A stretch of 64,000 nucleotides of DNA from Sulfurimonas gotlandica GD1 (GTDB taxonomy: Bacteria > Campylobacterota > Campylobacteria > Campylobacterales > Sulfurimonadaceae): assembly GCF_000242915.1 (NCBI RefSeq), contig NZ_AFRZ01000001.1, positions 1,612,001 to 1,676,000 on the forward strand, read 5' to 3'. Under the pieces are notes generated by a model. The model saw only the letters and a list, made by a program, of their open reading frames with translations. It ran no database searches and was not told the DNA's origin. Position numbers and translations under genes: made by a program. Below, one piece after another: positions 12,894-27,645 of the stretch. The stretch's first letter is position 1; every line of letters starts with the position of its first letter.

Positions 12894-13735
12894 TACTTTC
12901 CTTTTTTCTTCATAATAAATAGTCGTCCAATTATGTTTAGAGATAAAATAAACATACTTAAAATAAATGCTGCAGCCCATCCAAGTTTTTGCCAATCTTC
13001 ATATGGACTAGTTGCATAGTTGTACATTGTTACAGTCAGAGATGCTACAGGCGCATTCATATCTGTATTTAAAAAATTGTCATTAAATGATGTAAAGAGT
13101 AGTGGAGCAGTTTCACCTGCAACACGAGCCACACCAAGTAAAATACCTGTAAGTATTCCAGCCTTTGCTCCACGATAAACTACCTGTATAATAACTTTGT
13201 ATTTAGGAGCACCAAGTGCAAAAGCAGCTTCTCTTAGCGTTGATGGAACAAGCTGTAACATGTCATCAGTAGTTCTAAGAATGATAGGCAACATTATAAT
13301 AGTCAGAGCAATTGAACCTGCCCAACCGCTAAAGTGACCCATAGGTGCAACAATGATTGCATAAACAAAAGCTCCGATAACAATACTCGGAGCAGACATC
13401 ATAATGTCTGAGATATCACGTATAGCCTCAGAGAGTTTTGACTTTTGACCATATTCACTAAGATATGTCCCCGCCATAATACCTAAAGGAACACCAACAA
13501 GTGTAGCTACTCCAACAATCATTAACTGTCCAATCAGTGCATGTTTTAAACCACCTTCTGCGTTGCCAGGAGGTGCACCTTCTTGAGTAAAAATACTCCA
13601 TGTAAGTGCATCAACACCGTTTATGATTAAAACACCTAAAATCCAAAATAAAAATCCAATTCCAATCAGAGCTGACAGCGTAGATAAGACCATAACAATA
13701 TTATTTATAATAATTCTTTTTTTAGTATGAGTCAT
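12893..13735 (-). CDS. pstA: Phosphate ABC transporter permease
   Basis: 280 residues with six predicted membrane helices. The BPD_transp_1 domain has the coupling-loop pattern around [22 protein letters not shown] (EAA motif near 165-185). It contains the PstA hallmark [14 protein letters not shown]. It overlaps pstC by one base at 13735 and pstB by three bases at 12893, giving a tightly coupled operon. Its role is to form the inner-membrane phosphate channel with PstC. Confidence 0.95.
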
Positions 13736-14592
13736 TAGACTAACCTTTTTCTTCTAAGGAAGTAAAACTTTGCAACTGAGATAATGGTAAAACTAATTAC
13801 AAGAAGTAAAAGTGACAACTCAAACAAAGATGAGTAGTAAAGCTCAGTATCTGCTTCAGTAAACTCATTTGCAAGTGTTACCGGAATCGAAGTCGCAGGT
13901 TGTGTTAAATCTGCAGATATTTTATGCACATTACCCATTACAAATGTTACAGCCATAGTCTCTCCGATTGCACGACCAAGAGCTAAGATAAATGAACCTA
14001 TAATTCCGGCTTTAGCGTATGGGATGATAATGTCTTTTATAACATCCCATTTGGTTCCACCAAGTGCATAAGCAGACTCTTTTAATATATCTGGTGTTGT
14101 ATTCATAGCATCTCTTGTTACTGCTGCCATAAATGGAAGAATCATGATTGAAAGTACGATACCAGCTGTTAACATACTTATTCCTATACCTCCAAAAACA
14201 TCACGAACGATAGGCACAAAATAAAAAAGTCCCCACATTCCGTAGATAACAGATGGAATAGCAGCAAGAAGCTCTATTGATACACCAACTGGTGCTTTAA
14301 ACTTCGCAGGTGCCAACTCACTTAAGAATATTGCCACCCCAATAGCTAGTGGAACCGCTAAAATCATTGCTAGAAACGTTGAGACAACAGAACCGTAAAT
14401 AGCAGGAAGTGCTCCAAATTTTTCTAAATTCGGTGCCCATTTTGTGTCAGTTATAAAGTCAAAGCCAAAAGCGTTAATTGACTCGATGGAGTGTTGAAAT
14501 AAAACTACAAAAATCCATGCAACAATAAGAAGTATAGCAATAGCGATTATTTTTGTAGCGTTAGCAAAAAGTTTATCTATTATTATGCTCAT
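13735..14592 (-). CDS. pstC: Phosphate ABC transporter permease
   Basis: 285 residues, six membrane helices. The EAA-type coupling loop reads ILKESAYALGGTKWDVI, and the family stretch GRAIGETMAVTFVMGN (PstC-specific) follows. It is the first gene of the pstC-A-B-phoU unit and starts 31 bases downstream of a TATAAT that is preceded by a Pho-type direct repeat. pstS is not in the operon; it lies about 6 kb away on the other strand under the same kind of promoter. Confidence 0.95.
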   Translation of the reverse strand: MSIIIDKLFANATKIIAIAILLIVAWIFVVLFQHSIESINAFGFDFITDTKWAPNLEKFGALPAIYGSVVSTFLAMILAVPLAIGVAIFLSELAPAKFKAPVGVSIELLAAIPSVIYGMWGLFYFVPIVRDVFGGIGISMLTAGIVLSIMILPFMAAVTRDAMNTTPDILKESAYALGGTKWDVIKDIIIPYAKAGIIGSFILALGRAIGETMAVTFVMGNVHKISADLTQPATSIPVTLANEFTEADTELYYSSLFELSLLLLVISFTIISVAKFYFLRRKRLV

Positions 14593-14622: not shown

Positions 14623-14655
14623 ATTATAAAAAAGTTTGGTTACATAGAGGTTACA
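14623..14655 (-). promoter_or_regulatory. Pho-type box and -10 upstream of pstC
   Basis: On the minus strand, TGTAAC (14655-14650), five bases, TGTAAC (14644-14639), ten bases, then TATAAT (14628-14623). The 11-bp repeat period and the 10-base gap to the -10 are identical at pstS and at the porin at 26449. The sequence after the second repeat (CAAACTTTTT) almost equals that at the porin. This fits activation by a PhoB-like regulator replacing the -35 box. Confidence 0.85.
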
Positions 14656-14922
14656 TTTTGGAATTGTTTAGAAGATATTTTATTAAAATCAACACTTCTG
14701 TTTTTATCTATTTATTTATTTTATTCTAGCTTTGTGGTTCAAATTATAAATAGCCTTTAAAAAGAAAATTTTATTAATTTATACCTTTTGGGGTTAAAAT
14801 CATATATAAATCTCTTTAAGAGCATTTAAAATTAATTTTATGATGAATAATATTGGTATTAAAAAGTGTATTTTAGTAAATTTATTTTAATCTTCTAAAT
14901 AATCTAAAGAAAATCATTAAAA
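14656..14922. other. AT-rich intergenic stretch between divergent phosphate transport genes
   Basis: The gap between pstC and the PiT gene spans 14593-15036. Its ends carry the pstC Pho box (14623-14655) and the PiT promoter element (14923-14956). The middle is very AT-rich with long T/A runs and no open frame, RNA gene or convincing hairpin that I can support. Confidence 0.5.
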
Positions 14923-14956
14923 TTGAAGAAAAAATCAAGAATAGTAGGAGTATACT
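14923..14956 (+). promoter_or_regulatory. Direct-repeat promoter element upstream of the PiT gene
   Basis: TGAAGA (14924-14929), five bases, TCAAGA (14935-14940), ten bases, TATACT (14951-14956). Repeat period and spacing match the Pho boxes, but the half-site differs. The same element with conserved flanks (AGTAGnAG before TATACT) is upstream of the first ppk2 gene at 18743-18776. A start near 14963 would give a leader of about 75 bases. Confidence 0.65.
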
Positions 14957-15036
14957 GACTCCATGTAGCTGATAAATAACTTAAGATAAAAAGAAAATGA
15001 GTTAGAGATATTATACAGCTCTTAGAAAAGGAAAAC

Positions 15037-16668
15037 ATGGAAATTCAGACAGTTAAGAAGATGGAAAAAGAGGCGCTTAAGGGCAGCGGTATAGATTTTA
15101 TGAGACTTGGGTTCGCACTCTTTTTTATGGTGGCAGTTCTTGCTTACAGCTTCTTGAGTCTGGGTAGTGTTCCAAATAGTATGTTTCTAGCTATTGCAGC
15201 GCTCTTTGGAGCGTATATGGCAATGAACATCGGAGCTAACGATGTTGCCAACAACGTTGGACCAGCTGTTGGTTCAAAAGCTCTTACTATGGGTGGAGCG
15301 ATAGTTATTGCTGCTATTTTTGAAGCTGGTGGTGCCTTTATCGCCGGTGGTGATGTTGTAAAAACAATCAAAAAAGGTATTATTGATATAAATGCATTTG
15401 GTGGAAATGTAGATCCATTCATCTGGGCGATGATGGCTGCACTTTTAGCAGCTGCATTATGGCTAAACTTTGCAACTGCGATGAAAGCACCGGTTTCAAC
15501 TACACACTCAATCGTTGGTGGTGTTATGGGTGCTGGTATTGCGGCAGCAGGGTTTAGTATAGTTGACTGGGGTACAATGGCAAAAATTGCATCTTCATGG
15601 ATTATCTCACCTGTTTTAGGTGGTGTGATTGCTGCAACATTTTTGTTTGCTATTAAAAAGACAATGGTCTATAAAGAAGATAAAATAACCGCAGCCAAGA
15701 TATGGGTGCCTATCTTTGTAGCCATTATGTCATGGGCATTTGTTACTTACTTAACTTTAAAAGGTCTTAAAAAGATTTGGCCTTCGATTGTTGATGTCTT
15801 GTCTTTTCTTCCAGATGAGAAAAAACCTTCATTTATTGTTGCAGCAATTTTTGGATTAATCATTGCAGCAATTGTCTACTTCATAGTTAAAAAAACTGTC
15901 ACAGCCAGAGCTGCTAAACTTGATAACACTAGAGCTGGAATAAATTTACTTTTTACAGTACCTCTTATTTTTGCAGCGGCACTATTAAGTTTTGCTCATG
16001 GAGCAAATGATGTTGCAAATGCAATTGGACCATTAGCTGCGATCAGTGATGCTGTTACTACAGGTGGCATCTCTGCTAAAGCCGGAATACCTTTTTGGGT
16101 AATGGCAGTAGGAGCTTTAGGTATTGCAATTGGACTAGCTCTTTATGGACCAAAACTGATTAAAACTGTAGGTGGTGAGATAACAGAACTTGATCAGATG
16201 AGAGCATTTTCAGTAGCAATGGCTGCTTCTATAACGGTGATTATAGCTTCACAGCTTGGTCTTCCTGTTTCTTCTACTCATATTGCTATTGGTGGTATAT
16301 TTGGTGTTGGTTTTTTAAGAGAGTATCTGGTTTCAACTAATCAAGAAGAGATTTTACACCAAGAGGAATTAAGTATTGAAGATGAGAAAAAAGTTTTAAA
16401 AGCATATACTAGTGAGAGAAAAACATTAGAAGATAAGAGTGATAAAACTAAAGATGATTATGAGAGAATTGTTAATCTATATAAAATGATTGATGAAGAA
16501 GAGAATAAGATTAAATCATCTAAAAAACATATTAAAAGCGTAGAAAAAGTTAAATACGTAAAAAGAGATGCAGTTAAGAAAATTATAGCAGCTTGGATAA
16601 TAACAGTTCCTGCAGCCGCTCTTTTATCTGCAGCAATATTTTTTATGATTAAAGGAATTGTGCTTTAA
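15037..16668 (+). CDS. Inorganic phosphate transporter, PiT family
   Basis: 543 residues with about ten membrane helices. Both halves carry the PiT signature GANDVAN: GANDVANNVGPAVGSKA near 66-82 and GANDVANAIGPLAAI near 323-337. Each half also has a STTHS / SSTHIAIGG segment. A charged, coiled-coil-like loop of about 80 residues (roughly 440-520) separates the last helices, longer than in short PiT proteins. PiT carriers are low-affinity phosphate (or metal-phosphate) symporters. The gene overlaps the next transporter by one base (TAATG), so the two phosphate carriers and the small coiled-coil protein form one operon. Confidence 0.93.
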   Translation: MEIQTVKKMEKEALKGSGIDFMRLGFALFFMVAVLAYSFLSLGSVPNSMFLAIAALFGAYMAMNIGANDVANNVGPAVGSKALTMGGAIVIAAIFEAGGAFIAGGDVVKTIKKGIIDINAFGGNVDPFIWAMMAALLAAALWLNFATAMKAPVSTTHSIVGGVMGAGIAAAGFSIVDWGTMAKIASSWIISPVLGGVIAATFLFAIKKTMVYKEDKITAAKIWVPIFVAIMSWAFVTYLTLKGLKKIWPSIVDVLSFLPDEKKPSFIVAAIFGLIIAAIVYFIVKKTVTARAAKLDNTRAGINLLFTVPLIFAAALLSFAHGANDVANAIGPLAAISDAVTTGGISAKAGIPFWVMAVGALGIAIGLALYGPKLIKTVGGEITELDQMRAFSVAMAASITVIIASQLGLPVSSTHIAIGGIFGVGFLREYLVSTNQEEILHQEELSIEDEKKVLKAYTSERKTLEDKSDKTKDDYERIVNLYKMIDEEENKIKSSKKHIKSVEKVKYVKRDAVKKIIAAWIITVPAAALLSAAIFFMIKGIVL

Positions 16669-18488
16669 TGTTAAAGAAAATATTATTACCGACAATTTTA
16701 GTCATTCTTGCTTACGGCTTTTGGATTAGCCCAGATTTTAAAGAGATAGCAGCCGGTGTTGCTATCTTTTTATTTGGTATGTTAACTTTAGAGGAAGGTT
16801 TTAAAGCTTTTTCTGGTGGTACTTTAGAAAAGATTTTAAAAAAATCTACAGATAAACTTTATAAAAGCATTAGTTTTGGATTTGTAGCTACGGCGATAAT
16901 GCAATCAAGTTCTTTGGTCTCAGTTTTAACTATATCATTTATAGGAGCAGGACTAATTGGTCTTACTCAGGGTATTGGAATAATCTTGGGTGCCAATATC
17001 GGAACAACAACCGGTGCTTGGTTAATGGCCGGATTTGGTTTGAAAGTAAAAATATCAGCTTATGCAATGCCAATGCTTGCCTTTGGTGTGATACTGATTT
17101 TCCAAAAAGCTAAATCTTTAAAAGGTATAGGGTATATATTAGCGGGACTTGGATTTTTATTTTTAGGTATCCATTATATGAAAGATGGATTTGAAGCATT
17201 TAAAAACACGGTTGATTTAGCAAGTTTTTCAGTTGATGGTTTTAAAGGTCTACTTATTTTTGTAGGAGTGGGTATTTTAGCAACTGTAGTTATGCAATCC
17301 TCACATGCTACTATAGTTCTTATTCTTGCTGCTTTATCTGTTGGTCAAATAACATATGAAAATGCTCTAGCGCTTACAATTGGTGCAAACATAGGTACAA
17401 CTATTACTGCCGTTATTGGTTCATTGAGCTCAAATATAGATGGTAAACGACTCGCAGGAGCGCATTTTATTTTTAACGTAGTGACTGCTCTAGTAGCTAT
17501 TGCTTTTATGAATCAAATAATGCAATTTGTAGCGATTATAAGTGATTCGATAGGAATAGCTAGCGACAATCACACACTTAGACTTGCAGTTTTTGACAGT
17601 TTCTTTAAAATAATGGGTGTGATTATGTTTATACCATTTATTGATAAGCTTGTGAAATTTCTTAATAATACACTTAAATCAAGTACATTAGAATCAGATG
17701 CAGGTTCGGATAATGCTAAATACTTAAATGATTCAGTATTAGGACTTTCAGCAACTTCTATGGCAGCTATTGTTAGAGAGACAAAGCATCTGTATGAAAA
17801 TGCATTTGAGATTATCACTCACGGATTGAATATAAAAAGACATAATATAGTCTCGTCTATGCCATTGGAAGAGGTTGTGCAAGAAGAGTATTCTAAAGAA
17901 GCAATCGACATTGATGATTTTTATAATAGAAGAATAAAAGGTATATATGGCGAGATTATAGATTTTTCTACTAGAGCCCAGTCTCAAATGGAACCAGAAG
18001 ATATTGAGATTCTTTACAAATTAAAGCTTGCTAATAGAGATATAGTAGAAGCTGTAAAAGACACAAAACATTTACAAAAGAATTTAGTCAAATATTCAAA
18101 AAGTACGAATGAGCATATAAAAATGCAATACAATACTATGAGAAAAGATTTGGCAGAACTTTTGAGAAATATCAATATTATTGCAACAACAGATGAAGAA
18201 GATATCATACTTATGTTACTTTCAAAAGCTAAACTGCATATTGAAAAGTATGACATTATTGCTAATGGTACACTGGATAACCTCATTAGAAAAGGTTTGA
18301 TTACAAATGAGATGGCTACTTCATTGATGAATGACAGCGCTTACGCTTATAATATAAGTAAACATCTTATAGCTATGGCAAATGTGATATTTATTGATAA
18401 TAATAATGATATGAAAAACATTGGTGAAGAGATGCTTATCAGTGATGATGAAGTTACTTCAATCTTAGAAAAAAAGGAGAGTACATGA
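16668..18488 (+). CDS. Na+/phosphate cotransporter, NptA family, with C-terminal PhoU-like domain
   Basis: 606 residues. The N-terminal half has two Na_Pi_cotrans repeats, each with the QSS motif: IMQSSSLVSVLTISF with GANIGTTTGAWL, and VMQSSHATIVLILA with GANIGTTITAVIG. The C-terminal part (about 345-600) is a soluble helical PhoU-like domain (ETKHLYENAFEI, IDFSTRAQSQ, ADVNxI-type helices). Members import or export phosphate with sodium, and the PhoU-like tail is thought to regulate. It overlaps PiT upstream by one base and the next small gene by four. Confidence 0.92.
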   Translation: MLKKILLPTILVILAYGFWISPDFKEIAAGVAIFLFGMLTLEEGFKAFSGGTLEKILKKSTDKLYKSISFGFVATAIMQSSSLVSVLTISFIGAGLIGLTQGIGIILGANIGTTTGAWLMAGFGLKVKISAYAMPMLAFGVILIFQKAKSLKGIGYILAGLGFLFLGIHYMKDGFEAFKNTVDLASFSVDGFKGLLIFVGVGILATVVMQSSHATIVLILAALSVGQITYENALALTIGANIGTTITAVIGSLSSNIDGKRLAGAHFIFNVVTALVAIAFMNQIMQFVAIISDSIGIASDNHTLRLAVFDSFFKIMGVIMFIPFIDKLVKFLNNTLKSSTLESDAGSDNAKYLNDSVLGLSATSMAAIVRETKHLYENAFEIITHGLNIKRHNIVSSMPLEEVVQEEYSKEAIDIDDFYNRRIKGIYGEIIDFSTRAQSQMEPEDIEILYKLKLANRDIVEAVKDTKHLQKNLVKYSKSTNEHIKMQYNTMRKDLAELLRNINIIATTDEEDIILMLLSKAKLHIEKYDIIANGTLDNLIRKGLITNEMATSLMNDSAYAYNISKHLIAMANVIFIDNNNDMKNIGEEMLISDDEVTSILEKKEST

Positions 18489-18730
18489 GTATAAAAAACT
18501 TTATTGAGAGTGTTAGAAAGTCTTTAAGTATTGATGATTATGAGAAGTCTGGTAAAAAAAAATCTGTTAAAAACTTACTAAAGAAGTTACGTGAGAGAGA
18601 AAACAAGATTCTTAAATCCTTGAAGAAAAAGTTAGATAAAAAAGATAAAAAAGAGTTAAATGAAGAGCTTGAGATTATTGAGTTACAAATAAAAAATGGT
18701 AAAAAAATACTGGAAAAACTCAACTCTTAA
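18485..18730 (+). CDS. Small charged coiled-coil protein in the phosphate carrier operon
   Basis: 81 residues, start overlapping the upstream stop by 4 bases (ATGA), so translation is probably coupled. About half the residues are Lys, Glu or Asp; a heptad pattern of leucine and isoleucine (VKNLLKKLRERENKILKSLKKKL then ELNEELEIIELQ) predicts one long coiled coil from about 25 to 78. No signal peptide or known domain. It resembles the charged loop inserted in the PiT protein in character, so it might bind the carriers. No function can be assigned. Confidence 0.7.
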   Translation: MSIKNFIESVRKSLSIDDYEKSGKKKSVKNLLKKLRERENKILKSLKKKLDKKDKKELNEELEIIELQIKNGKKILEKLNS

Positions 18731-18742
18731 AATGTGTATATA

Positions 18743-18776
18743 TTGAAGAAACTATCAAGATAAGTAGTAGTATACT
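18743..18776 (+). promoter_or_regulatory. Direct-repeat promoter element upstream of the first ppk2
   Basis: TGAAGA (18744-18749), five bases, TCAAGA (18755-18760), ten bases, TATACT (18771-18776). It is a close copy, about 28 of 35 positions by eye, of the element ahead of PiT at 14923. It supports joint control of polyphosphate synthesis and low-affinity phosphate transport. Confidence 0.65.
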
Positions 18777-18821
18777 TGTTAGAGATAGTTTGAGTAAAAG
18801 AAGAATTAAATAAGGATACAA

Positions 18822-19718
18822 ATGGCAGCAAAAGAGACAAATATGTTTGACGTAGATGGAAAACAGGTTACACTTGACGAGTTGATAAAAGAATATAAAA
18901 AATCAAAAAATCAAAAAATTATAAGAAGTAAGGCAGAAATTAAGAGAAATGATGAGCAGAAGCTCAAGCCTTACCAAGCAGAACTTATTAAACTTCAAAA
19001 ATATTTAGAAGACACTTCACAAAAAATGATTATACTTTTTGAAGGTCGTGATGCTGCTGGAAAAGGTGGAACCATAAGAAGAGTTACGAGATATATGGAT
19101 GAAAAACATTATCGTGTAGTTGCACTTGGAAAACCTACAGAGGAGCAAAAAACTCAATGGTTTTACCAAAAATATATTCAACACTTTCCAAGAGGTGGTG
19201 AGATAGTTCTTTTTGATAGAAGTTGGTATAACAGAGCAATGGTAGAGTCTGTTTTTGATTTTTGTACTAAAAAAGAGTTTGATGACTTTATGAATGGCGT
19301 AAAAGGGTTTGAAAATGATCTTGTTCGTCAAGGAACAATACTTGTAAAACTATACTATAGTGTAACAAAAGATGAACAGGCAAGAAGATTCTCCAGACGT
19401 AAAAATGATCCACTAAGACAGTGGAAACTTAGTGAGATAGATTTACAGGCTCAAGAGAGATGGGATGACTTCACAACTACAAAATACAATATGATAAAGC
19501 AGACTCACTCTCACAGTGCTCCTTGGACAATTATAAGATCAAAAGACAAACAACTAGCAAGACTAGAATCTTTAAAAGTAATACTTAATGCTGTTGATTA
19601 TGAAGGCCGTGATGAGCATTTGAATTATTCACTAAATCCAGCTGTTGTAATATCGGGAGCTAGAGAGATTGAGATAATGGACGCACAAATTACAAGTACA
19701 GGTAAATTTATAGGATAA
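18822..19718 (+). CDS. ppk2: Polyphosphate kinase 2 family protein (copy 1)
   Basis: 298 residues, one PPK2 domain. Walker A-type FEGRDAAGKGGTIRR (about 68-82), lid-region motif VALGKPTEEQKTQWFYQ, and Walker B-type IVLFDRSWYNRA with the following FSRRKNDPLRQWKLS are all typical. PPK2 enzymes move phosphate between polyphosphate and nucleotides; single-domain members act mostly as polyphosphate-driven NDP kinases or run in reverse. It has its own promoter element and is followed after 13 bases by a second PPK2 gene. Class and direction cannot be fixed by eye. Confidence 0.92.
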   Translation: MAAKETNMFDVDGKQVTLDELIKEYKKSKNQKIIRSKAEIKRNDEQKLKPYQAELIKLQKYLEDTSQKMIILFEGRDAAGKGGTIRRVTRYMDEKHYRVVALGKPTEEQKTQWFYQKYIQHFPRGGEIVLFDRSWYNRAMVESVFDFCTKKEFDDFMNGVKGFENDLVRQGTILVKLYYSVTKDEQARRFSRRKNDPLRQWKLSEIDLQAQERWDDFTTTKYNMIKQTHSHSAPWTIIRSKDKQLARLESLKVILNAVDYEGRDEHLNYSLNPAVVISGAREIEIMDAQITSTGKFIG

Positions 19719-19731
19719 TAAGGGGAATATA

Positions 19732-20622
19732 GTGAAAGAAGAAAAGATGTCAAAAAAAGAGATAAGAAAAGAAGAAGATAGAAGAAAGCTTGACCGAGAC
19801 AGAAGAGAAAAAAAGAAAGATGGTAAAGTTAGAATATGGGTTAAAGCAGAAACACTGGAGTATGAAGATGAACTCTCAAAGCTACAGGTAGAACTTTTAA
19901 AATTCCAAAACCATGTAAAAGAACAAGGACTCAAAATCTTGATGATTTTTGAAGGTCGTGACGCTGCTGGCAAGGGTGGAACTATTAAAAGAATTACTGA
20001 GCATCTAAACCCAAGGGGAGCAAGAGTTGTAGCCCTTGAAAAACCAAGTGATCAAGAGCGTACTCAGTGGTATTTTCAAAGATATGTAAAACATCTGCCT
20101 AGTGCGGGTGAGATTGTACTATTTGACAGAAGTTGGTATAACAGATCAATGGTTGAGCCTGTTATGGGTTTCTGTACAGAGAGAGAGCATCATAAATTTT
20201 TAAAAGACGCACCGAAATTTGAGCAAATGATTGTAGATGAAGATATACAGATATTTAAATTTTATTTCTCAGTATCTAAAGATGAGCAAGAAAAAAGATT
20301 TAAAGCAAGAGAGACAGATCCTCTAAAGCAGTATAAGCTATCACCTGTAGATAAAGAATCACAAAAACTTTGGAATGAATACTCTCTCGCAAAATACATG
20401 ATGCTTAGCGCAACTCATGTAGAATCTGCTCCATGGACAATTGTTAAGAGTGATGATAAGAAAAAAGCTAGAATCAACTGCATAAAACATATACTAAATT
20501 TTGTTGATTATCCAGATAAAATATCTAACAAAAATATAAAAGTAGACGGCGATATCATAGTATACGGAAGAGATGAGGCCATATCTATGGAGAAAATGTT
20601 TAAGTTCTCGGAAAAAAAATAG
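19732..20622 (+). CDS. ppk2: Polyphosphate kinase 2 family protein (copy 2)
   Basis: 296 residues from a GTG preceded by AAGGGG; an ATG five codons later is an alternative. The first 35 residues are almost all Lys, Arg, Glu and Asp, a likely disordered basic-acidic tail not seen in copy 1. The kinase domain has FEGRDAAGKGGTIKR, VALEKPSDQERTQWYFQ, IVLFDRSWYNRS and FKARETDPLKQYKLSPVD. It clearly descends from the same ancestor as copy 1, but is diverged enough to suggest a different nucleotide preference. Cotranscribed with copy 1. Confidence 0.92.
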   Translation: MKEEKMSKKEIRKEEDRRKLDRDRREKKKDGKVRIWVKAETLEYEDELSKLQVELLKFQNHVKEQGLKILMIFEGRDAAGKGGTIKRITEHLNPRGARVVALEKPSDQERTQWYFQRYVKHLPSAGEIVLFDRSWYNRSMVEPVMGFCTEREHHKFLKDAPKFEQMIVDEDIQIFKFYFSVSKDEQEKRFKARETDPLKQYKLSPVDKESQKLWNEYSLAKYMMLSATHVESAPWTIVKSDDKKKARINCIKHILNFVDYPDKISNKNIKVDGDIIVYGRDEAISMEKMFKFSEKK

Positions 20623-20639
20623 TTAGACATAAAAATTAC

Positions 20640-20665
20640 AAAGAGGTTACAAAAATAACCTCTTT
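20640..20665 (+). terminator. Rho-independent terminator after the ppk2 pair
   Basis: AAAGAGGTTA (20640-20649) pairs perfectly with TAACCTCTTT (20656-20665), loop CAAAAA. It ends the ppk2 transcript just before the pstS promoter. Confidence 0.75.
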
Positions 20666-20676
20666 CTACAAACTCT

Positions 20677-20709
20677 TGTAATCACTCTGTAACATTACAC
20701 ATTTATAAT
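20677..20709 (+). promoter_or_regulatory. Pho-type box and -10 upstream of pstS
   Basis: TGTAAT (20677-20682), five bases, TGTAAC (20688-20693), ten bases, TATAAT (20704-20709). Spacing is identical to the elements at pstC and at the porin at 26449. Confidence 0.85.
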
Positions 20710-20740
20710 TTCGTATCTTAAAAAATACAAAGGTATGAAA

Positions 20741-21745
20741 ATGTTAAAGAAAATACTTGGAGTTGCATTAGTTGCAGCTGTTTCTGTTAGTTCATCTATC
20801 GCAAGCGATAAGATAAATGGTGCTGGCGCATCTTTCCCTGCTCCTCTATATTATGATTGGGCTTTTAATTATAAAAAAGAGACTAAAAATCTTGTTAACT
20901 ATCAATCAATAGGTTCTGGCGGTGGAATCAAACAGATTACTAAACGTATTGTAGATTTTGGTGCATCTGATAAGCCTCTTGATTCTAAAAAACTTGGTGC
21001 AGCAAAACTTTTACAGTTCCCAGCAGTTATTGGTTCAATCGTTGTAGCATTTAACGTAGATGGAATCGCTGATGAAACTTTAAAACTTTCTAATGATGTA
21101 GTTGCAGATATCTTTGCAGGTAAAATCACTTCTTGGAATGATCCGAAAATAGCTGCTAACAATAGCGGTCTAAAACTTCCAAATCAAAAAATCATCGTTG
21201 TTCACCGTTCAGATGGAAGTGGTACTACTTATAACTTTACTTATTACCTAAGTGGAAGTTCACAGAACTGGAAAAATAGTTTTGGTACTGGTAAAGCTGT
21301 TGACTGGGCTGTTGGAATCGGTGGGAAAGGTAACGAGGGTGTTGCCAACTTAGTTAAGCAGACTCCTTATTCAATCGGTTACATTGAAAACGCTTATAAA
21401 GAGAAAAATAACTTAAGTGCAGCTATACTCAAAACTGCAAATGGTAAATGGGTAAAAGCTACTGAAGATAACTTCAAAGCTGCTGCTAAATATGCAAGCT
21501 GGACTAAAGAAGATAACTTCTATGCAATGTTAGCTCTACAGCCTGGTGATACTTCTTACCCGATTGTTGCTGCTACATTTATTTTACTTCCAACTGAGAC
21601 TCCTGCTATGAATAAAAAAGTAACAGAGTTTTATGATTATGCTTTCAAAAATGGTGACGCTTCAGCTAAAAAGCTAGGTTATATTCCACTTCCAGAAGCA
21701 ACTAAAAAAATGATTAGAGAATATTGGGCGGCTAATATCAAATAA
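20741..21745 (+). CDS. pstS: Phosphate-binding periplasmic protein
   Basis: 334 residues from the ATG at 20741. An ATG at 20735 is only one base from the AGG ribosome site, while 20741 is correctly spaced. A Sec signal peptide (MLKKILGVALVAAVSVSSSIA) is followed by the PstS core GAGASFPAPLYYDWAF, GSGGGIKQIT, VDFGASDKPLD and HRSDGSGTTYNFT, which include the phosphate-binding Ser/Thr loops. It captures phosphate for PstCAB. It stands alone, separated from pstCAB by the PiT and ppk2 genes but sharing their Pho box. Confidence 0.95.
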   Translation: MLKKILGVALVAAVSVSSSIASDKINGAGASFPAPLYYDWAFNYKKETKNLVNYQSIGSGGGIKQITKRIVDFGASDKPLDSKKLGAAKLLQFPAVIGSIVVAFNVDGIADETLKLSNDVVADIFAGKITSWNDPKIAANNSGLKLPNQKIIVVHRSDGSGTTYNFTYYLSGSSQNWKNSFGTGKAVDWAVGIGGKGNEGVANLVKQTPYSIGYIENAYKEKNNLSAAILKTANGKWVKATEDNFKAAAKYASWTKEDNFYAMLALQPGDTSYPIVAATFILLPTETPAMNKKVTEFYDYAFKNGDASAKKLGYIPLPEATKKMIREYWAANIK

Positions 21746-21779
21746 TTATTTCTATAACTTTCATTCATTCTCCTTAAAA

Positions 21780-21806
21780 GTTCTTGCATCGAGACAATGC
21801 AAGAAC
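21780..21806. terminator. Bidirectional terminator after pstS
   Basis: GTTCTTGCAT (21780-21789) pairs perfectly with ATGCAAGAAC (21797-21806) across a 7-base loop, between convergent pstS and the J-domain gene. Confidence 0.75.
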
Positions 21807-21810
21807 ACTC

Positions 21811-22089
21811 CTAACAGTTAAAACTTTTAAACCAATCATCCGGTCTGTTTGAAAACGGATTTTGTCTATGGAATTCCTCTTCATCTAAAGAAAATCTATA
21901 ATTTTTCATATATGTTTGTATGATTTTATATGCTTCATTAATCTCTCTGAATTTTTCATTACTACCATCAGGCATATCTGGATGATACTGTTTTGATAAT
22001 CTCTGATATTGGTTTTTAAGGTCAGCATGAGTTATTCGTGTCATTATATTTAAAGTCTCAAGAGCTTTTTCAAAATCTTTGTATCTCAT
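21811..22089 (-). CDS. Small J-domain (DnaJ-like) protein
   Basis: 92 residues, almost entirely one J domain: KNQYQRLSKQYHPDMPDGSNEKFREINEAYKII includes the invariant HPD loop, with a short tail rich in Phe and Asn. It lacks the Gly/Phe and zinc regions of DnaJ, so it is a type III co-chaperone that would stimulate a DnaK ATPase. A partner was not found nearby. Monocistronic and convergent with pstS. Confidence 0.85.
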   Translation of the reverse strand: MRYKDFEKALETLNIMTRITHADLKNQYQRLSKQYHPDMPDGSNEKFREINEAYKIIQTYMKNYRFSLDEEEFHRQNPFSNRPDDWFKSFNC

Positions 22090-22127
22090 ACTTCTCCTTT
22101 AAGTGTTTGTATATTTTACCTTTATTC

Positions 22128-22156
22128 TTGACATAAGAGTTTTAAAATCATAACAT
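22128..22156 (+). promoter_or_regulatory. Sigma-70-type promoter for the rhodanese-DsrE pair
   Basis: TTGACA (22128-22133), 17 bases, TAACAT (22151-22156). The start codon at 22195 follows at a normal distance. Confidence 0.6.
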
Positions 22157-22194
22157 AGTAAGGATATTTAATTTTCAAGTGAACAAGGAATGTA

Positions 22195-22665
22195 ATGAGA
22201 AGCAAAATAATAAATTTAATCTTGATAGTATCAATTCTATCAGCTACATCATTGATGGCTAGGTTTAAAGAGACAGAAGCATTACTCTCAGAAGCTAAAA
22301 GAGAGGTTGGTGAGATGACACCTCAAGAATTAAAGAAAATGATCGATAGTGAAGAAGAAGTAATAGTCCTTGATGTAAGAGAGATTGAACAAAGAGCAGA
22401 AGGTAAAATTTATGCGGATGACAGCTATGCTATAACTCGTTGTAATTTAGAGTTTCAGACGATGAAAATAATTGAAAATAAAGATGCTATTATCGTTAGC
22501 TACTGTCGAGGCGGGATTCGTAGTGCATTCGCAGCACAAACATTAAGAAAACTTGGATATAAAAATGCTACAAGTCTAAAGGGTGGTCTCAAAGCTTGGG
22601 CAAAAGCCGGTTATGTGATTGAGACAGGGCTTGGAGTAACAAAATTAGTAAAGGATAAGGAATGA
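22195..22665 (+). CDS. Secreted rhodanese-domain sulfurtransferase
   Basis: 156 residues. An N-terminal hydrophobic segment (5-21) is a signal peptide or anchor. One rhodanese domain (about 40-145) has the active loop CRGGIRS with C104 and the conserved VLDVRE. It would carry sulfane sulfur as a persulfide in the periplasm. It overlaps the DsrE-like gene by 4 bases (ATGA), so both act together, probably in sulfur transfer. The nearby ArsR and methyltransferase genes raise a possible link to metalloid detoxification, but the operon ends before them. Confidence 0.85.
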   Translation: MRSKIINLILIVSILSATSLMARFKETEALLSEAKREVGEMTPQELKKMIDSEEEVIVLDVREIEQRAEGKIYADDSYAITRCNLEFQTMKIIENKDAIIVSYCRGGIRSAFAAQTLRKLGYKNATSLKGGLKAWAKAGYVIETGLGVTKLVKDKE

Positions 22666-23015
22666 CTACTATTATTTTAAATCATCAGCCCTATGACGGT
22701 ACTGATATAACATGGAATGCACTAAGACTGGCTAAGACACTTTTTAAAAGTGGAGAAAAAGTCAATTTATTTTTAATGAATGACGCTGTTGATTTAGCTC
22801 GTGATAAAACAACTAAACCAGATAGTTACGATTATGACTTGGTTGAGATGCTAAAGAAGATGTATGCCAATGGAGTGTCCCTTCAAGTATGCGGTACATG
22901 TAACGCTCGTTGCGGCATATTTAAAAATGAGCCATATTTTGATGAAAAAGTAACTTCAACTATGCAAGTGCTTGCTGACTGGGTTATAGAGAGTGATAAA
23001 GTTATAAGTTTTTAA
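22662..23015 (+). CDS. DsrE-family protein
   Basis: 117 residues with the DsrE/F alpha-beta fold: N-terminal strand TTIILNHQPYDGTD, then VNLFLMNDAVDLARD and GVSLQVCGTCNARCG. Cysteines 77, 80 and 84 make a CxxCxxxC cluster; the first lies in the position of the sulfur-carrying cysteine of this fold. These proteins bind or transfer sulfane sulfur, and it pairs with the rhodanese upstream through a 4-base overlap. It is cytoplasmic, so a shared substrate would have to cross the membrane or the rhodanese would be membrane-anchored facing outward. Confidence 0.8.
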   Translation: MTTIILNHQPYDGTDITWNALRLAKTLFKSGEKVNLFLMNDAVDLARDKTTKPDSYDYDLVEMLKKMYANGVSLQVCGTCNARCGIFKNEPYFDEKVTSTMQVLADWVIESDKVISF

Positions 23016-23032
23016 CCAAAGTAAAAATAATC

Positions 23033-23401
23033 TTATTTGGTGTTGTCAAACTGATAGACAACACCTTTTTCATAATCTTCTACTAAAATATTGAAGCATC
23101 CTGCAATCTCTTTCATAGTCTCTATATTTGGTTCTATATAAATCTTATTTTTATTTTTTGTCATAGTAATTATTTTTGCATCTTTTAACTCTTTTAAATG
23201 ACGAGAGATTGTAGGAAGTGCAAAATCAAAATGTTCTGCGATGCTAGTAACACAAGTGGCTTGAGCGATAATATCATCTTTTGGTTTAGAGTCATCAATT
23301 GAACAAGCATATCCGCCAGTGAAAATATTTTTAAAAATCATAAACCTTGTCTCATTACCAAGGGCTTTGAAAATCTTAATCTTATCATTCATATCTAGCA
23401 T
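23033..23401 (-). CDS. ArsR/SmtB-family repressor
   Basis: 122 residues; the ATG at 23401 has AAGG seven bases upstream. The winged-helix core reads FKALGNETRFMIFKNI, SIAEHFDFALPTISRHLKELKDAKII and a wing strand KNKNKIYIEP. The recognition-helix motif LPTISRHLKEL is typical. Cysteines are at 33, 50 and 102; the classic ELCVCDL motif is absent, so the metalloid or thiol sensing site is different. It is divergent from the porin gene at 23555, whose upstream region carries two operators, and a copy of these is before the ArsM fusion. It probably represses both, and itself. Confidence 0.88.
   Translation of the reverse strand: MLDMNDKIKIFKALGNETRFMIFKNIFTGGYACSIDDSKPKDDIIAQATCVTSIAEHFDFALPTISRHLKELKDAKIITMTKNKNKIYIEPNIETMKEIAGCFNILVEDYEKGVVYQFDNTK
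23039..23065 (+). terminator. Plus-strand intrinsic terminator inside the 3' end of arsR
   Basis: GGTGTTGTC (23039-23047) pairs with GACAACACC (23057-23065), followed by TTTTT. It ends the rhodanese-DsrE transcript but lies antisense within the last codons of the convergent arsR-like gene (stop at 23033). Confidence 0.75.
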
Positions 23402-23428
23402 CTAATAACCTTGTATATAATTTAGAAA

Positions 23429-23531
23429 GGATTATATCCAAAGTAAATCTATTTAGCAATTTAGACAATTAACGCTAGTATAAGTTATTATAATATAAAA
23501 TGAAAAGAATCATTTAGCTTATAAGCCAAAT
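23429..23531. promoter_or_regulatory. Operator region A: direct repeat copy plus palindrome
   Basis: Positions 23429-23485 align without gaps with 24901-24957; within them, 23449-23473 (25 bases) is identical to 24921-24945. Exactly 63 bases after the start of the identical block begins an imperfect palindrome, ATTTAGCTTATAAGCCAAAT (23512-23531). A TATAAT (23489-23494) lies between the two. The layout fits a repressor binding on both sides of a promoter. Confidence 0.75.
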
Positions 23532-23554
23532 TGTAAAGGAATCTTACCAGTAAC

Positions 23555-24880
23555 ATGCGTACTTTTACTTTAATATTTTTTCTATTTATATCCACCTTAG
23601 ATGCTCTTGAAAACTCATCATTAAGTTTTGATGGCCAATACAGAGGGCGTTTTGATATATATAATGGTGTAAATAAAGCAGCCTATGGAGATGACTCAAT
23701 AGATGCAAAAGGAAATAGCAGAGGTAAATCTAATGATACGATATACCTTCAACAAATTATTGCCGGCTTTACATACAAACCTAACACTGATTGGAAAATA
23801 AAAGCTTATATGTATGATTCACGTTCTTGGGGTTCCTCTTTAGATGCTGATGATTTTATTAAAAATGGTGGAACTCCTGATGAGTACGGGATGTCCTTTT
23901 ATGATGATCATTTTGAACTTTTTGAAACCTATATCCAAAAACACAATTTTTTAAGCAAAAATCTAACTTTTACTGTTGGCCGTCAACAGTTGGGGTATGG
24001 AGATAGCAGAATCTTTGGCCCTGGAAAATGGGGAAACACAATTGGTTGGCTTTGGGATGGCACTCATATATCATATAAAAAAGATAATAATTTTATAGAC
24101 CTGTGGTACGGGCAGACTCGTATAAAAGATAGTGATGATTTTAGTATACTAGAACAACATCGATATCAAGGAGTGGGATTATACTCTCACTATGAATTCT
24201 CTTCAATGAAGATAGAGCCTTTTGGAGCATGGAAAAACAATCTCCATACAGAAGTCTCAGATGAGTTTAATTACTACTATGGCGGGGCAAGGGTTTATGA
24301 TTTAACAAAAGGTTTCATTTACGACATAACAGGAGTCAAGCAGATAGGAAGTTACAGTACTAAAGATGTAGATGCATACGCTTATGTTTTAAAGGGTGGT
24401 TATAAGTCTATAAATAAATATGAACCTACTTTCACCTTGGCTTATATTTATGCTTCTGGTGATAATGATTTAGACGACAATAAAGTAAAAACATTCACTA
24501 CACCTTTTGGTTCTACTGATGGGTCACATTATGGACGTATGGATGTAATGGCATGGGCAAATATGAGTGACTTAGAAGCAAAAATTTCTATTAAACCAAT
24601 GAAAAATATGAATTTACAGTTTGAATACCATCATTTTAATCTTGCAGATGCTGCTGATAAATGGTATATCTTTGGATATAAAAATAAAGTTGGAAATAGT
24701 TTCACTCATATTGGAGATGAGTATGATGTAACTATCAAATATAAAGCTACAAAAGATTTAAACTTGTTGGCTATTGGTGCATATATGAAATCTGGGGATT
24801 TTATTACCGCTAATGATATTGCCCAAAATGATACATCAAAAGTTTTTTTACAATTTTTATATAAATTTTCTACAAATTAA
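23555..24880 (+). CDS. Outer-membrane porin, alginate-export-like family
   Basis: 441 residues with a Sec signal peptide (about 1-19). The barrel begins SLSFDGQYRGRFDIYNG, and contains the family-like VGRQQLGYGDSRIFGPGKWGNT and WDGTHISYKK segments found in the alginate export/OprD-like porins. It ends with an aromatic-rich strand (LFLQFLYKF then STN). The ribosome site is far from the ATG (AAAGGA about 14 bases away), so initiation may be weak. Its 5' region shares operators with the ArsM fusion gene. The solute is unknown; a metalloid or small oxyanion is an inference from regulation only. Confidence 0.8.
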   Translation: MRTFTLIFFLFISTLDALENSSLSFDGQYRGRFDIYNGVNKAAYGDDSIDAKGNSRGKSNDTIYLQQIIAGFTYKPNTDWKIKAYMYDSRSWGSSLDADDFIKNGGTPDEYGMSFYDDHFELFETYIQKHNFLSKNLTFTVGRQQLGYGDSRIFGPGKWGNTIGWLWDGTHISYKKDNNFIDLWYGQTRIKDSDDFSILEQHRYQGVGLYSHYEFSSMKIEPFGAWKNNLHTEVSDEFNYYYGGARVYDLTKGFIYDITGVKQIGSYSTKDVDAYAYVLKGGYKSINKYEPTFTLAYIYASGDNDLDDNKVKTFTTPFGSTDGSHYGRMDVMAWANMSDLEAKISIKPMKNMNLQFEYHHFNLADAADKWYIFGYKNKVGNSFTHIGDEYDVTIKYKATKDLNLLAIGAYMKSGDFITANDIAQNDTSKVFLQFLYKFSTN

Positions 24881-24900
24881 TAGTCTCTAAATTTGATGAA

Positions 24901-25003
24901 AGATTATATATAAAGTGAAGCTATTTAGCAATTTAGACAATTAACTTTTATATAAGTAAAAACTATATACAATTTTGAAATAAATTTAGCTTATTAGCTA
25001 AAT
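24901..25003. promoter_or_regulatory. Operator region B: second copy upstream of the ArsM fusion
   Basis: 24901-24957 matches 23429-23485, with 24921-24945 identical to 23449-23473. A perfect 8-bp-arm palindrome, ATTTAGCT-TATT-AGCTAAAT (24984-25003), begins 63 bases after the identical block, the same distance as in region A. The gene start is at 25022 behind AAGGA. Confidence 0.75.
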
Positions 25004-25021
25004 AGTATATAAGGACATTAA

Positions 25022-26380
25022 ATGGCTGATGTAAAACAGATAATAGAACTTTATTCAGAGTTAGTTGATAAACCAAATAAAGATTTTGGCTGGGATAAGG
25101 GAATTGAAAATGCCAAAGCACATAACTACTCTAAAGAGTGGTTTGAAAAACTACCGCTTAAAGTGTGGGACTATTGTGCTGCTGTTGGAAATCCGTTTGA
25201 GCAAGCGGATATACAAGAAGGTTCTACTGTTGTAGACCTAGGTTGTGGAGCAGGTGTAGATCTATTGGTGAGCGCTCTACTTGTTGGTGAAAATGGTAAG
25301 GCAATAGGTGTTGATATCACTCCTAAAATGGTTAAAAAAGCAAAAGAACATGCAGCTTTAGCAGGTTTTATAAATGTTGATGTTTTAGAGAGCAGTTTTG
25401 ATGATATTGATTTAGAAGATGAGTCTGTTGATGTCGTTATCTCTAATGGTGCTATAAATCTTACATCTTGTAAAGAGAGTGTCTTTGCTGAAATTTACAG
25501 AATATTAAAACCGAATGGGAAAATTTATTTTGCAGATATGATAGATATATCTGAGAATGATGACTCTTGTAGTGATGAAAGCTCTTGTTGTATATCTGAG
25601 TCACAAGACTGGGCTAACTGTGTGGCTGGAACACTACAAAAAGATAAGCTAATAGAGATAATCTCTAAAGCTGGATTTAGAAATGTAGAGTGTACAGGAT
25701 TAACACACTACAAAACATCAGATACTACATGCGGCGCAACTTTTAAAGCTGCAAAGATTGCATCGGATGAGTTAAGAGAAGCTCACTGGGATAATATCTT
25801 TAAAACAAAGGATTATACACAGGTTTTATGGCATCAGAACTCTCCTGATAAGTCCTTAGATCTAATAAAAAAATCCAACATAGGAAAGAAAAGTTCGATT
25901 ATTGACGTAGGATGCGGAGCTTCATATTTAGTTGATAAGTTAGTAGAAGATGGATATAAAGATATTACACTTCTTGATACATCCGCTACTTCTCTTGAGA
26001 TAGTAAAAGGAAGACTCTGGAGTCATGCTGATATTGTAGAGTATATTTGTTCAGATATTATGAACTATGAGAGTTCAAAAAAGTTTGATATCTGGCATGA
26101 TAGAGCTGTTTTTCACTTCTTAGTTCTCAAAAAAGAAAGAGCTAAATATTTTGAAGTTCTGCAAAATTCATTACAATCAGGCGCTATCGCAATAATAAAT
26201 ACATTTGCTACTGATGGTCCAATTCAATGCGCAGGCTTAGATATAGTTCAGTACGACAAAGAAAAAATGTTACAAGAACTACCTTCTGGACTAGAGCTTA
26301 TGGAGTACGATAAATATATACATCATACACCAAAGAATACAGATCAAAAATACAGCTGTTTTGTCATTAAAAAAGCATAA
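25022..26380 (+). CDS. ArsM-like arsenite methyltransferase fused to a second methyltransferase domain
   Basis: 452 residues in two SAM-dependent domains. Domain one (1-245) follows ArsM: C52 just before the fold, motif I VVDLGCGAGVD (70-80), VGVDITPKM, SNGAINL, C200 in NCVAGTL and C237 in TTCGATFKA. These three cysteines correspond to the As(III)-binding set of ArsM. Domain two (about 253-450) has a separate motif I IIDVGCGAS (293-301), LLDTS and DIWHDRAVFHFL, a class I methyltransferase of unknown substrate. A cysteine-rich insert (CSDESSCC, 183-190) lies in domain one. The gene is preceded by the second operator copy and is probably under ArsR control. Arsenic or another metalloid is the likely substrate. 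Confidence 0.82.
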   Translation: MADVKQIIELYSELVDKPNKDFGWDKGIENAKAHNYSKEWFEKLPLKVWDYCAAVGNPFEQADIQEGSTVVDLGCGAGVDLLVSALLVGENGKAIGVDITPKMVKKAKEHAALAGFINVDVLESSFDDIDLEDESVDVVISNGAINLTSCKESVFAEIYRILKPNGKIYFADMIDISENDDSCSDESSCCISESQDWANCVAGTLQKDKLIEIISKAGFRNVECTGLTHYKTSDTTCGATFKAAKIASDELREAHWDNIFKTKDYTQVLWHQNSPDKSLDLIKKSNIGKKSSIIDVGCGASYLVDKLVEDGYKDITLLDTSATSLEIVKGRLWSHADIVEYICSDIMNYESSKKFDIWHDRAVFHFLVLKKERAKYFEVLQNSLQSGAIAIINTFATDGPIQCAGLDIVQYDKEKMLQELPSGLELMEYDKYIHHTPKNTDQKYSCFVIKKA

Positions 26381-26386
26381 GTCCAA

Positions 26387-26419
26387 TGTAATCTCTATGT
26401 AACCAAACTATTTTATAAT
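26387..26419 (+). promoter_or_regulatory. Pho-type box and -10 upstream of the porin at 26449
   Basis: TGTAAT (26387-26392), five bases, TGTAAC (26398-26403), ten bases, TATAAT (26414-26419). It is nearly identical to the pstC element, including CAAACT just after the second repeat. It begins 7 bases after the methyltransferase stop. Confidence 0.85.
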
Positions 26420-26448: not shown

Positions 26449-27645
26449 ATGAAAAAAATAGTTTTATCAGCATTAGCTGCATTAACAATCGGTACAGTAG
26501 CTGCATCTGCTGGCGATGTAAAATTCTATACAGACGGCAATGGTCAAGTATTCACTACTGCTGGTGAAGGTCGTACTGAGATAAAAAGTAAAAAAACTCC
26601 AGTATTTTCTCATGCTGATAAATTAAAATTCAGTGGTTTAACTTATATTGGCTATACATATAATGACTACAAAGATGGATTGACATCTGATAACGTAACA
26701 GCTTATCAAAGTGACACATCTCAATTTGAATTAAGAAGAGCTTATTTTCAACTAAAAGCATACCTTTTAGATGATCCTAAATCTTATTACCGTGTTACAT
26801 TTGACATGTACCAAAATACAGAGAAAGATATGGTTGTTCGTGCTAAATATGCATATCTTTATTTAAATGAAGTTTTACCTTTTACTGGTGTAGAAATTGG
26901 TTTAGTTCACCGTCCATGGCATGACTATGAAGAACATAATGCTTGGTACTACCGTAATATTTCAAAAGTTTTAATTGAAGCTAAAAATGCTGGTGATTTA
27001 AGTAATTCAGCTGACTATGGTGTTAACTTTAAAACTAAAACAAAATATTTTGATAGTGAAATTGGTTTATTTAATGGTGAAGGGTATCACGCTACACAAG
27101 CAACTGGTACTGGTATGAGTCTTGAGTGGAGAGCAACTGCTCACTTACTTGGTGTAAACGGTAAAGATAAACAAACTATTAAAACTTATCTTGATGCTTC
27201 TTTCTTTGGTCAATACAACCAAGAACATAAAGCTAATGCAGCTGCACCAAGTGGCTTTGATGATTTAATCTTTACTGGACTTCATACAGTATATAATCAG
27301 CCAGAGTTCTTAATATCTGCTCAATATGTATTATCTAATGATACTGCTGAAAACTCTACTTATGTTTCTAAGCAAGCTGGTTCAGGTTACAGTGTAAATG
27401 GTGAATACCGTCTTGGAGATAAGAAAGAGTATAGAGCAATCGCTCGTTATGATAGTTGGACAGATAAAAAAGCAACAAGTTCAGCTGAGAAAGCAGATAA
27501 GGCATATATCGTTGGTGGTGTTTGGGAACAAAGCCATAATGTTCAATGGGTTGCTAATGCTATTGTTACTGATAATGAAGCAGGTAGTGATAGAGAAAAA
27601 TATAACGGCGTAGCTTACATGCTTACTGCTGAAGTTAAATTCTAA
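26449..27645 (+). CDS. Outer-membrane porin, phosphate-starvation-regulated (OprO/P-like candidate)
   Basis: 398 residues with a Sec signal peptide cleaved near SAGDVKF (about residue 21). Barrel strands such as LKFSGLTYIGYTYNDYKDG, QFELRRAYFQLKAYLLDDPKSYYRVTFDM and a final AYMLTAEVKF with C-terminal Phe indicate a trimeric-type porin. The RRAYFQLKA segment resembles the phosphate-selective porin O/P family. The Pho-type promoter supports a role in phosphate (and perhaps arsenate) entry. A strong terminator follows. Selectivity is inferred from regulation and weak similarity, not from identified binding lysines or arginines. Confidence 0.82.
   Translation: MKKIVLSALAALTIGTVAASAGDVKFYTDGNGQVFTTAGEGRTEIKSKKTPVFSHADKLKFSGLTYIGYTYNDYKDGLTSDNVTAYQSDTSQFELRRAYFQLKAYLLDDPKSYYRVTFDMYQNTEKDMVVRAKYAYLYLNEVLPFTGVEIGLVHRPWHDYEEHNAWYYRNISKVLIEAKNAGDLSNSADYGVNFKTKTKYFDSEIGLFNGEGYHATQATGTGMSLEWRATAHLLGVNGKDKQTIKTYLDASFFGQYNQEHKANAAAPSGFDDLIFTGLHTVYNQPEFLISAQYVLSNDTAENSTYVSKQAGSGYSVNGEYRLGDKKEYRAIARYDSWTDKKATSSAEKADKAYIVGGVWEQSHNVQWVANAIVTDNEAGSDREKYNGVAYMLTAEVKF

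Follow-up and report, generated by a model that had tools for sequence, protein, structure and literature searches.

We have analysed a 64,000-nucleotide stretch of the Sulfurimonas gotlandica GD1 genome (the window), in which three identically built sites of the form TGTAAY-N5-TGTAAC-N10-TATAAT precede pstC, pstS and the gene of an outer-membrane porin. From their sequence and its conservation we read these sites as Pho-box promoters, where an activator stands in for the -35 box, serving the pst genes and the porin; we put the probability of this reading at roughly 0.9. Our analysis establishes where the sites lie, that their geometry is fixed and that they are conserved and specific; it also covers the identities of the genes and the co-occurrence of a PhoB-like regulator with pstS.

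Predicted Pho-box promoters in the window:
14655-14623, minus strand: promoter of pstC(AB-phoU), exact match TGTAACCTCTATGTAACCAAACTTTTTTATAAT; half-sites 14655-14650 and 14644-14639, -10 box 14628-14623
20677-20709, plus strand: promoter of pstS, exact match TGTAATCACTCTGTAACATTACACATTTATAAT; half-sites 20677-20682 and 20688-20693, -10 box 20704-20709
26387-26419, plus strand: promoter of the porin gene, exact match TGTAATCTCTATGTAACCAAACTATTTTATAAT; half-sites 26387-26392 and 26398-26403, -10 box 26414-26419

In the mechanism that we propose, phosphate limitation would cause a PhoR-like kinase to phosphorylate a PhoB-like regulator of the OmpR family. A dimer of this regulator would occupy the two TGTAAY half-sites, which repeat every 11 bp, in head-to-tail orientation and would recruit sigma-70 RNA polymerase to a -10 box that has no -35 box of its own. 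In this way pstS, pstCAB-phoU and the outer-membrane porin would be switched on together, and phosphate would pass through the porin across the outer membrane, be bound by PstS and be imported by PstCAB. We infer the binding of the regulator, the activation at low phosphate and the passage of phosphate through the porin.

Three promoters of one design

An earlier note on this DNA had described three 33-mers of the pattern, and all three are present with zero mismatches. The 11-bp repeat period and the N10 distance to the -10 box, which the note had held to be common to the three, are so in the exact matches, and orthologues and free-spacing scans agree. The gap between the -10 box and the ATG is 30 nt for pstC (ATG at 14592), 25 nt for pstS (20735) and 29 nt for the porin (26449). 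In 100 shuffles of the window, searched with up to three mismatches, a setting far looser than the exact match observed, we found a mean of 0.48 matches, and three were reached in 2/100. Across the 2.95 Mb of the organism's own genome the half-site pair TGTAAY-N5-TGTAAC occurs three times and the full pattern also three times, so every such pair in the genome has a -10 box at N10; the reversed control pattern occurs 0 times. If three mismatches are allowed there are 37 matches, compared with 29 for the reversed control. This is near background, and isolated weak matches therefore mean little. A chance origin of the sites was rejected, as the reversed control gave 0 matches both in this genome and in 228 genomes of the family.

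The promoters are conserved in relatives. Orthologue sets were picked without reference to the motif and scored over its 18 consensus positions. The PstS and PstC sets hold the 30 best loci each (of 49 genomes with PstS and 57 with PstC), drawn from 60 genus genomes, with the window's genome included once in each. The porin set comprises 36 named loci holding porin relatives (27 of them titled Sulfurimonas), selected on the porin and not on the box. Two pstS rows (L138, miscalled start; L144, match at a contig edge) and three porin rows (L072 and L068, upstream shorter than 100 nt, although L068 scores 18; L087, miscalled start) were left out. The scan upstream of the pst genes in relatives, which the earlier note had proposed as a check, gave at least 15/18 before all 28 readable pstS genes and all 30 pstC genes, with scores of 15-18 in both sets. 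Porin relatives score 14-18 (33/33 readable loci). When the spacing was left free (256 combinations, ties shared), N5/N10 was the best one in 27.3/28 pstS, 25.3/30 pstC and 29.8/33 porin upstreams, and upstreams resampled with their base-to-base frequencies kept reached 15 or more in just 7/2440.

The specificity of the box was surveyed over 499 open reading frames (ORFs) from the window, from the locus of the regulator and from the porin loci. These were called mechanically (first ATG, at least 120 aa), so that a part of the starts is miscalled and a part of the ORFs does not represent genes. A score of at least 15/18 was found for PstS in 26/26, PstC in 22/25, the window-type porin in 30/35, Porin_5-type porins in 3/6 and PhoB-like regulators in 4/17, and for 3 of the 316 unrelated ORFs. 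The pst genes that served as negative controls, which are mostly internal to operons, gave 0/23 (PstA), 0/19 (PhoU) and 1/21 (PstB), and no such box precedes Pit (0/2), Na/Pi (0/1) or PPK2 (0/6) genes in the survey. For the reference labels OlsF, RR_B, porin2, L097prot and PstC2 the source was a locus that itself carries a box, and for PstS2 it was a porin locus, which makes their own matches partly circular.

The second half-site of relatives is often TGTAAT. The comparative consensus is TGTAAY-N5-TGTAAY-N10-TATAAT, with a C usually right after the first half-site. Boxes of pstS lie nearer to this consensus than those of pstC: over 26 same-genome pairs the means are 17.3 and 16.3 (Wilcoxon p 0.0024, uncorrected for kinship), and TATAAT is found in 17 pstS compared with 3 pstC boxes. 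This difference may set the relative expression of the two genes.

The full pattern has 42 matches in 34 of the 228 family genomes, and the reversed control has 0. With free spacing (gaps N2-8 by N6-14, 63 geometries) there are 52 matches, 42 of them at N5/N10, five at N5/N11, two at N5/N8 and one in each of three further geometries; the reversed control totals 4. Among the 29 new family loci with a strict match, 25 sites directly precede a porin, PstS, PstC, PhoB-like regulator or acyltransferase gene (L092 is counted as a porin on its leader alone). The downstream gene in the other four, judged by eye, encodes a kinase, an RRM protein, a pseudopilin and an unknown protein. A scan of 397 genomes of the phylum, in which the second half-site could end in T or C, found matches in 44 genomes (55 places; reversed control 0). 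The gene behind the site is PstC, PstS or PhoU in 14 of the 27 new loci among these places, and in 10/22 outside the family; the two other families with most genomes in the phylum sample rarely show the strict pattern. We also considered and rejected a single inherited stretch of DNA as the source of the sites, since 88 distinct sites stand before three unrelated genes.

The earlier note had further supposed that a PhoB-like regulator replaces the -35 box, and the sites agree with this. At the 16-18 bp distance, 65/88 distinct sites match TTGACA at no more than two of its six positions, compared with about 43/88 random places in the same upstreams, a scarcity that is partly due to half-site bases filling that place. 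The TGn extended -10 occurs in 0/88. Plain sigma-70 promoters were rejected on this under-representation of TTGACA. A different thought is that the repeats are not an operator at all but belong to a constitutive promoter architecture of the phylum, AT-rich and read by sigma-70 with no -35 box. Promoters of Campylobacterota are said to have no clear -35, and the spacing between the repeat pattern and the ATG hardly varies, as this explanation would have it. Against it, 15/18 is reached by just 3/316 unrelated ORFs, exact copies number three in 2.95 Mb, and a pst, porin, PhoB-like or acyltransferase gene lies behind the site in 25/29 family loci. The specificity largely refutes this explanation, which we consider highly improbable.

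The Pho-box reading gains from comparison with Escherichia coli. The features that mark a Pho box here are the 11-bp direct repeats, their position at the -35 place with a fixed distance to the -10 box, and their occurrence upstream of pst genes across relatives. In annotated E. coli records pstS (TGTCAT-N5-TGTCAT-N10-TATAAC) and phoB (TTTCAT-N5-TGTCAT-N10-CATAAT) have the same N5/N10 geometry as the Sulfurimonas sites. Upstream of the porin gene phoE we find TGTAAT-N5-TTTAAC-N10-TAAAAA, where taking TAAAAA as the probable -10 box is our own reading. The half-sites differ, being TGTAAY in Sulfurimonas and TGTCAT in E. coli. In the available part of one study, the E. coli consensus is CTGTCAT-N4-CTGT(C/A)A(C/T), whose second repeat permits TGT(C/A)A(C/T) (PMC3465305); TGTAAY agrees with this second repeat and departs from the first. 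PhoB sites of E. coli given in the available text of another study include a ChIP-seq site at yibT, TGTAATAGTTCTGTAACG, that reads TGTAAT-N5-TGTAAC, and one at mglB, TGTAACCCGTATGTAACA (PMC10294691). Unlike in E. coli, pstS and pstC form separate transcription units with a box each, and the PhoBR-like genes are unlinked to pst.

The genes of the window that bear on this reading are as follows:
13735..14592, minus strand: pstC, phosphate ABC transporter permease (TIGR02138, 288.8 bits, cut-off 196.45)
12893..13735, minus strand: pstA, permease (TIGR00974, 286.5 bits, cut-off 193.45)
12108..12995, minus strand: pstB, ATPase (TIGR00972, 371.9 bits, cut-off 343.2)
11387..12061, minus strand: phoU-like (PF01895, 64.2 bits, cut-off 23.5; TIGR02135, 76.4 bits, under the cut-off of 130.25)
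20735..21745, plus strand: pstS, phosphate-binding protein (TIGR00975, 355.9 bits, cut-off 205)
26449..27645, plus strand: outer-membrane porin, predicted to form a 16-strand barrel; without a Pfam family; one copy in the genome (E<=0.001)

The true start of pstB is probably further in, because the TIGR00972 match starts at residue 47. Between pstC and pstS (15037-20622) lie Pit, a Na/Pi symporter and two PPK2 genes, all without strong boxes. The upstreams of the window neighbours (Pit-type and Na/Pi transporters, PPK2, an alginate-export-type porin and a GGDEF protein) score only 11-12/18. An inverted half-site pair, TGTAACCTCTTTGTAAT, lies at 20635..20651 on the minus strand between PPK2 and pstS, where it overlaps a terminator-like hairpin (20665-20640, minus strand); judged by eye, it has no -10 box at N10. 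As pstC and pstS stand close together and divergent in several relatives (e.g. G213), the pair may be what is left of a former pstC promoter, or it may simply be the terminator stem. The distance between pstC and pstS ranges among relatives from about 140 nt to several kb.

A candidate regulator outside the window

For the note's PhoB-like regulator there is a candidate elsewhere in the genome, beyond the limits of the window: a PhoB/PhoR-like pair located at about 660-661.6 kb, which is the most likely regulator of the three boxes.

Genome 660950-661621, minus strand: PhoB-like regulator L025 (clade A), best family TIGR02154 PhoB, below cut-off

The genome encodes 30 OmpR-type domains at E<=0.001, 29 of them above the cut-off. 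L025 has the top TIGR02154 score (182.2 bits, the next 172.0) among the 18 of the 30 response regulators that were scored; we call it PhoB-like because this score is below the cut-off. In BLAST comparison with E. coli PhoB it also leads the 30, if narrowly (130 against 128 bits), and it shares 49% identity with a regulator of a relative whose gene has a box in front. The gene of the partner kinase, whose best family is TIGR02966 PhoR, overlaps that of L025. Across 60 genomes, clade-A regulator and pstS are both present in 47 and both absent in 9, with 2 + 2 discordant (Fisher p 1.9e-7, uncorrected for kinship; clade A is defined by at least 66% identity, a limit chosen after the list was seen).

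L025 may itself be under a Pho box. Its gene is preceded by three 11-bp-spaced units, TGTAATCATGC-TGTAATCAAAC-TAAAAC, then N10 and TACAAT; TGTAATCATGCTGTAATCAAACTAAAAC-N10-TACAAT stands before the gene, and the box scores 15/18, 29 and 40 nt before it. Autoregulation by this box is only suggested, because this promoter is poorly conserved in relatives. The recognition helix reads KTVNVAINRLK in L025 and RTVDVHIRRLR in E. coli PhoB, and these differences might explain the shift from TGTCA to TGTAA.

The boxes could also be worked by another OmpR-family protein, e.g. one like the second PhoB-like clade, B, which is about 50-55% identical and occurs in many relatives near pst or the porin. In several relatives (e.g. 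G133, G134, G155, G085 and G162) a clade-B regulator lies no more than about 10 kb from a pst or porin gene or from a box, the ATG of one such regulator (L112/L059) follows a perfect box at 26 nt, and the best regulators of the window's own genome are nearly level in BLAST score to E. coli PhoB. Yet this genome, with its three perfect boxes, has the clade-A copy only (E<=1e-40), and it is clade A that co-occurs with pstS. We regard a regulator other than clade A as improbable.

A number of observations weigh against reading the sites as PhoB-type promoters of one phosphate regulon. L025 and its kinase both miss the curated cut-offs (182.2 against 296.2 bits for TIGR02154 PhoB, 151.1 against 334.2 bits for TIGR02966 PhoR), and the DNA-binding domain of L025 alone is nearer to ArlR and CovR than to PhoB in the PDB set. 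The regulator promoter scores 11-16 in relatives, with N5/N10 the best spacing in only 4.6/30. In G213 a porin follows pstS without a box of its own. In 13 of the 27 new phylum-scan loci the site is followed by neither a pst gene nor phoU, and several have no obvious phosphate link. The sequences compared are related, and the counts are not independent. Finally, the exact match is absent from 194/228 family genomes and 353/397 phylum genomes. In the family this is partly because sites have drifted by one to three bases (orthologues then score 15-17) and partly due to genomes that are incomplete or have no pstS (11/60). The earlier note's consensus for the lineage is real but not universal, with those 194 family genomes lacking an exact full match.

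The porin and the slot behind pstS

That the porin belongs to the predicted phosphate regulon, as the earlier note had it, is borne out by boxes of at least 14/18 in all 33 readable relatives and by the porin being the next gene behind pstS in 25/30 loci. It there lies 69-386 nt past the pstS stop, and 24 of the 25 have a box scoring 16-18. In the remainder we find a pseudopilin-like gene (G115, a short contig) or another gene (G109) behind pstS, or a contig that ends soon after pstS (G128 and G215, the latter still with a perfect box). The window's own genome has five genes between pstS and the porin.

The porin matches no Pfam family at E<=0.1, Porin_O_P (PF07396) included, and has no paralogue in its own genome at E<=0.001. 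An AlphaFold2 model has 16 strands (mean pLDDT 79.9), and the 50 matches listed by Foldseek for it include OmpT, chitoporin, OprP (2o4v), OprO, PorB and OmpF. The model thus predicts a general porin fold, a 16-strand barrel as in PhoE, OprP and OprO. Identity to Pseudomonas OprP in the fold alignment is 14%. A porin behind a Pho-type box is common to this genome and E. coli, in the form of PhoE, and OprP and OprO of Pseudomonas also lie behind a Pho-type box.

It is possible, though we think it unlikely, that the box is real and the porin carries some other solute needed under phosphate stress. The lack of a Porin_O_P match, the presence of general porins besides OprP and OprO among the fold matches and the filling of the slot behind pstS by other barrel types in relatives would all suit such a role. 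Against it stand the position next behind pstS in 25/30 loci and the fact that one of the alternative barrels in this slot does belong to Porin_O_P (L093, PF07396 E 1.3e-10).

In 5 of the 25 relatives with a porin behind pstS (G098, G088, G090, G149 and G089) the box and leader are kept while the barrel belongs to a different type: identity to the window porin is 56-65% over the first 45 residues and only 22-26% over the remainder. In G155 the leader differs as well as the barrel. The L093 protein just mentioned is that of G088; G098 and G090 resemble it by eye, G090 having no significant Pfam match of its own, and G149, G089 and G155 match Porin_5. The conserved N-terminal tag is about 45 residues long, with a GQVFT-like motif. 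We see roughly even chances that this slot works as an exchange cassette, in which the Pho box, the signal peptide and the N-terminal tag stay constant and porin barrels of unrelated families (that of the window porin, an OprO/OprP type and Porin_5) are swapped. This is the one surprising result of our analysis, which deserves follow-up and calls for trees.

A possible wider regulon and its meaning

Beyond the window, two further genes are candidates for the regulon:
Genome 1934965-1934997 (box, 17/18, 28 nt before the gene): acyltransferase L011, about 490 residues, PlsC-like and GNAT domains
Genome 906038-906070 (box, 16/18, 30 nt before the gene): TonB receptor L008, Plug domain

We kept only these two and the regulator as weak-box candidates, since genes of these kinds also have boxes in relatives. 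Four relatives have an exact full-pattern box at an acyltransferase of the L011 type (G094, G102, G157 and L059, the site of L059 being identical to one of G156), and a gene of L081, TonB receptor-like by eye, also has a 16/18 box. Matches of 15-16/18 at L009, L013, L014, L018, L038, L040, L244, L248 and L257 were taken as noise. The domain architecture of L011 resembles that of the bifunctional ornithine-lipid synthase OlsF. Ornithine lipids make up 40% of the lipids of nitrate-grown S. gotlandica, according to the available part of the source (PMC9789136), and a Pho box before a likely ornithine-lipid synthase is for this reason directly testable.

Some boxes in other genomes stand before genes of other kinds. 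An EAL-domain gene of L119 (3663-5423) has a 15/18 box, and a similar-looking protein of L082 (minus strand, 12984), by eye, one of 17/18; these possibly link phosphate to cyclic-di-GMP. A 137-aa protein without a Pfam family has a strong box in two genomes (L097, L082:2022). In L224, L226 and L227, from another family of the phylum, a gene starts 6 nt past an exact box; by eye its product is similar to calcineurin-like phosphoesterases (LpxH or the phospholipase PlcP).

Our literature search, with subscription papers mostly outside its scope, returned no paper linking Sulfurimonas, PhoB and phosphate limitation and none joining the pho box with epsilonproteobacteria; TGTAAC together with pho box gave E. 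coli and Vibrio papers only. Campylobacter jejuni, of the same phylum as Sulfurimonas, has the PhoB-like two-component system PhosR/PhosS for the phosphate-uptake genes pstS and pstC, as the available parts of two papers describe (PMC3197622, PMC9449129).

The phosphate-response system described here is ordinary in kind, strongly supported and useful as a lineage consensus. It provides an operator consensus backed by comparison for a phylum in which C. jejuni has the only described phosphate system in the literature searched. Predicted phosphate-starvation genes now include a porin that had no name and, as candidates, an acyltransferase of the ornithine-lipid type and a TonB receptor. If the exchange cassette is true, phosphate-starved relatives would show different outer-membrane channels while their regulation is unchanged, perhaps under selection by phages or solutes.

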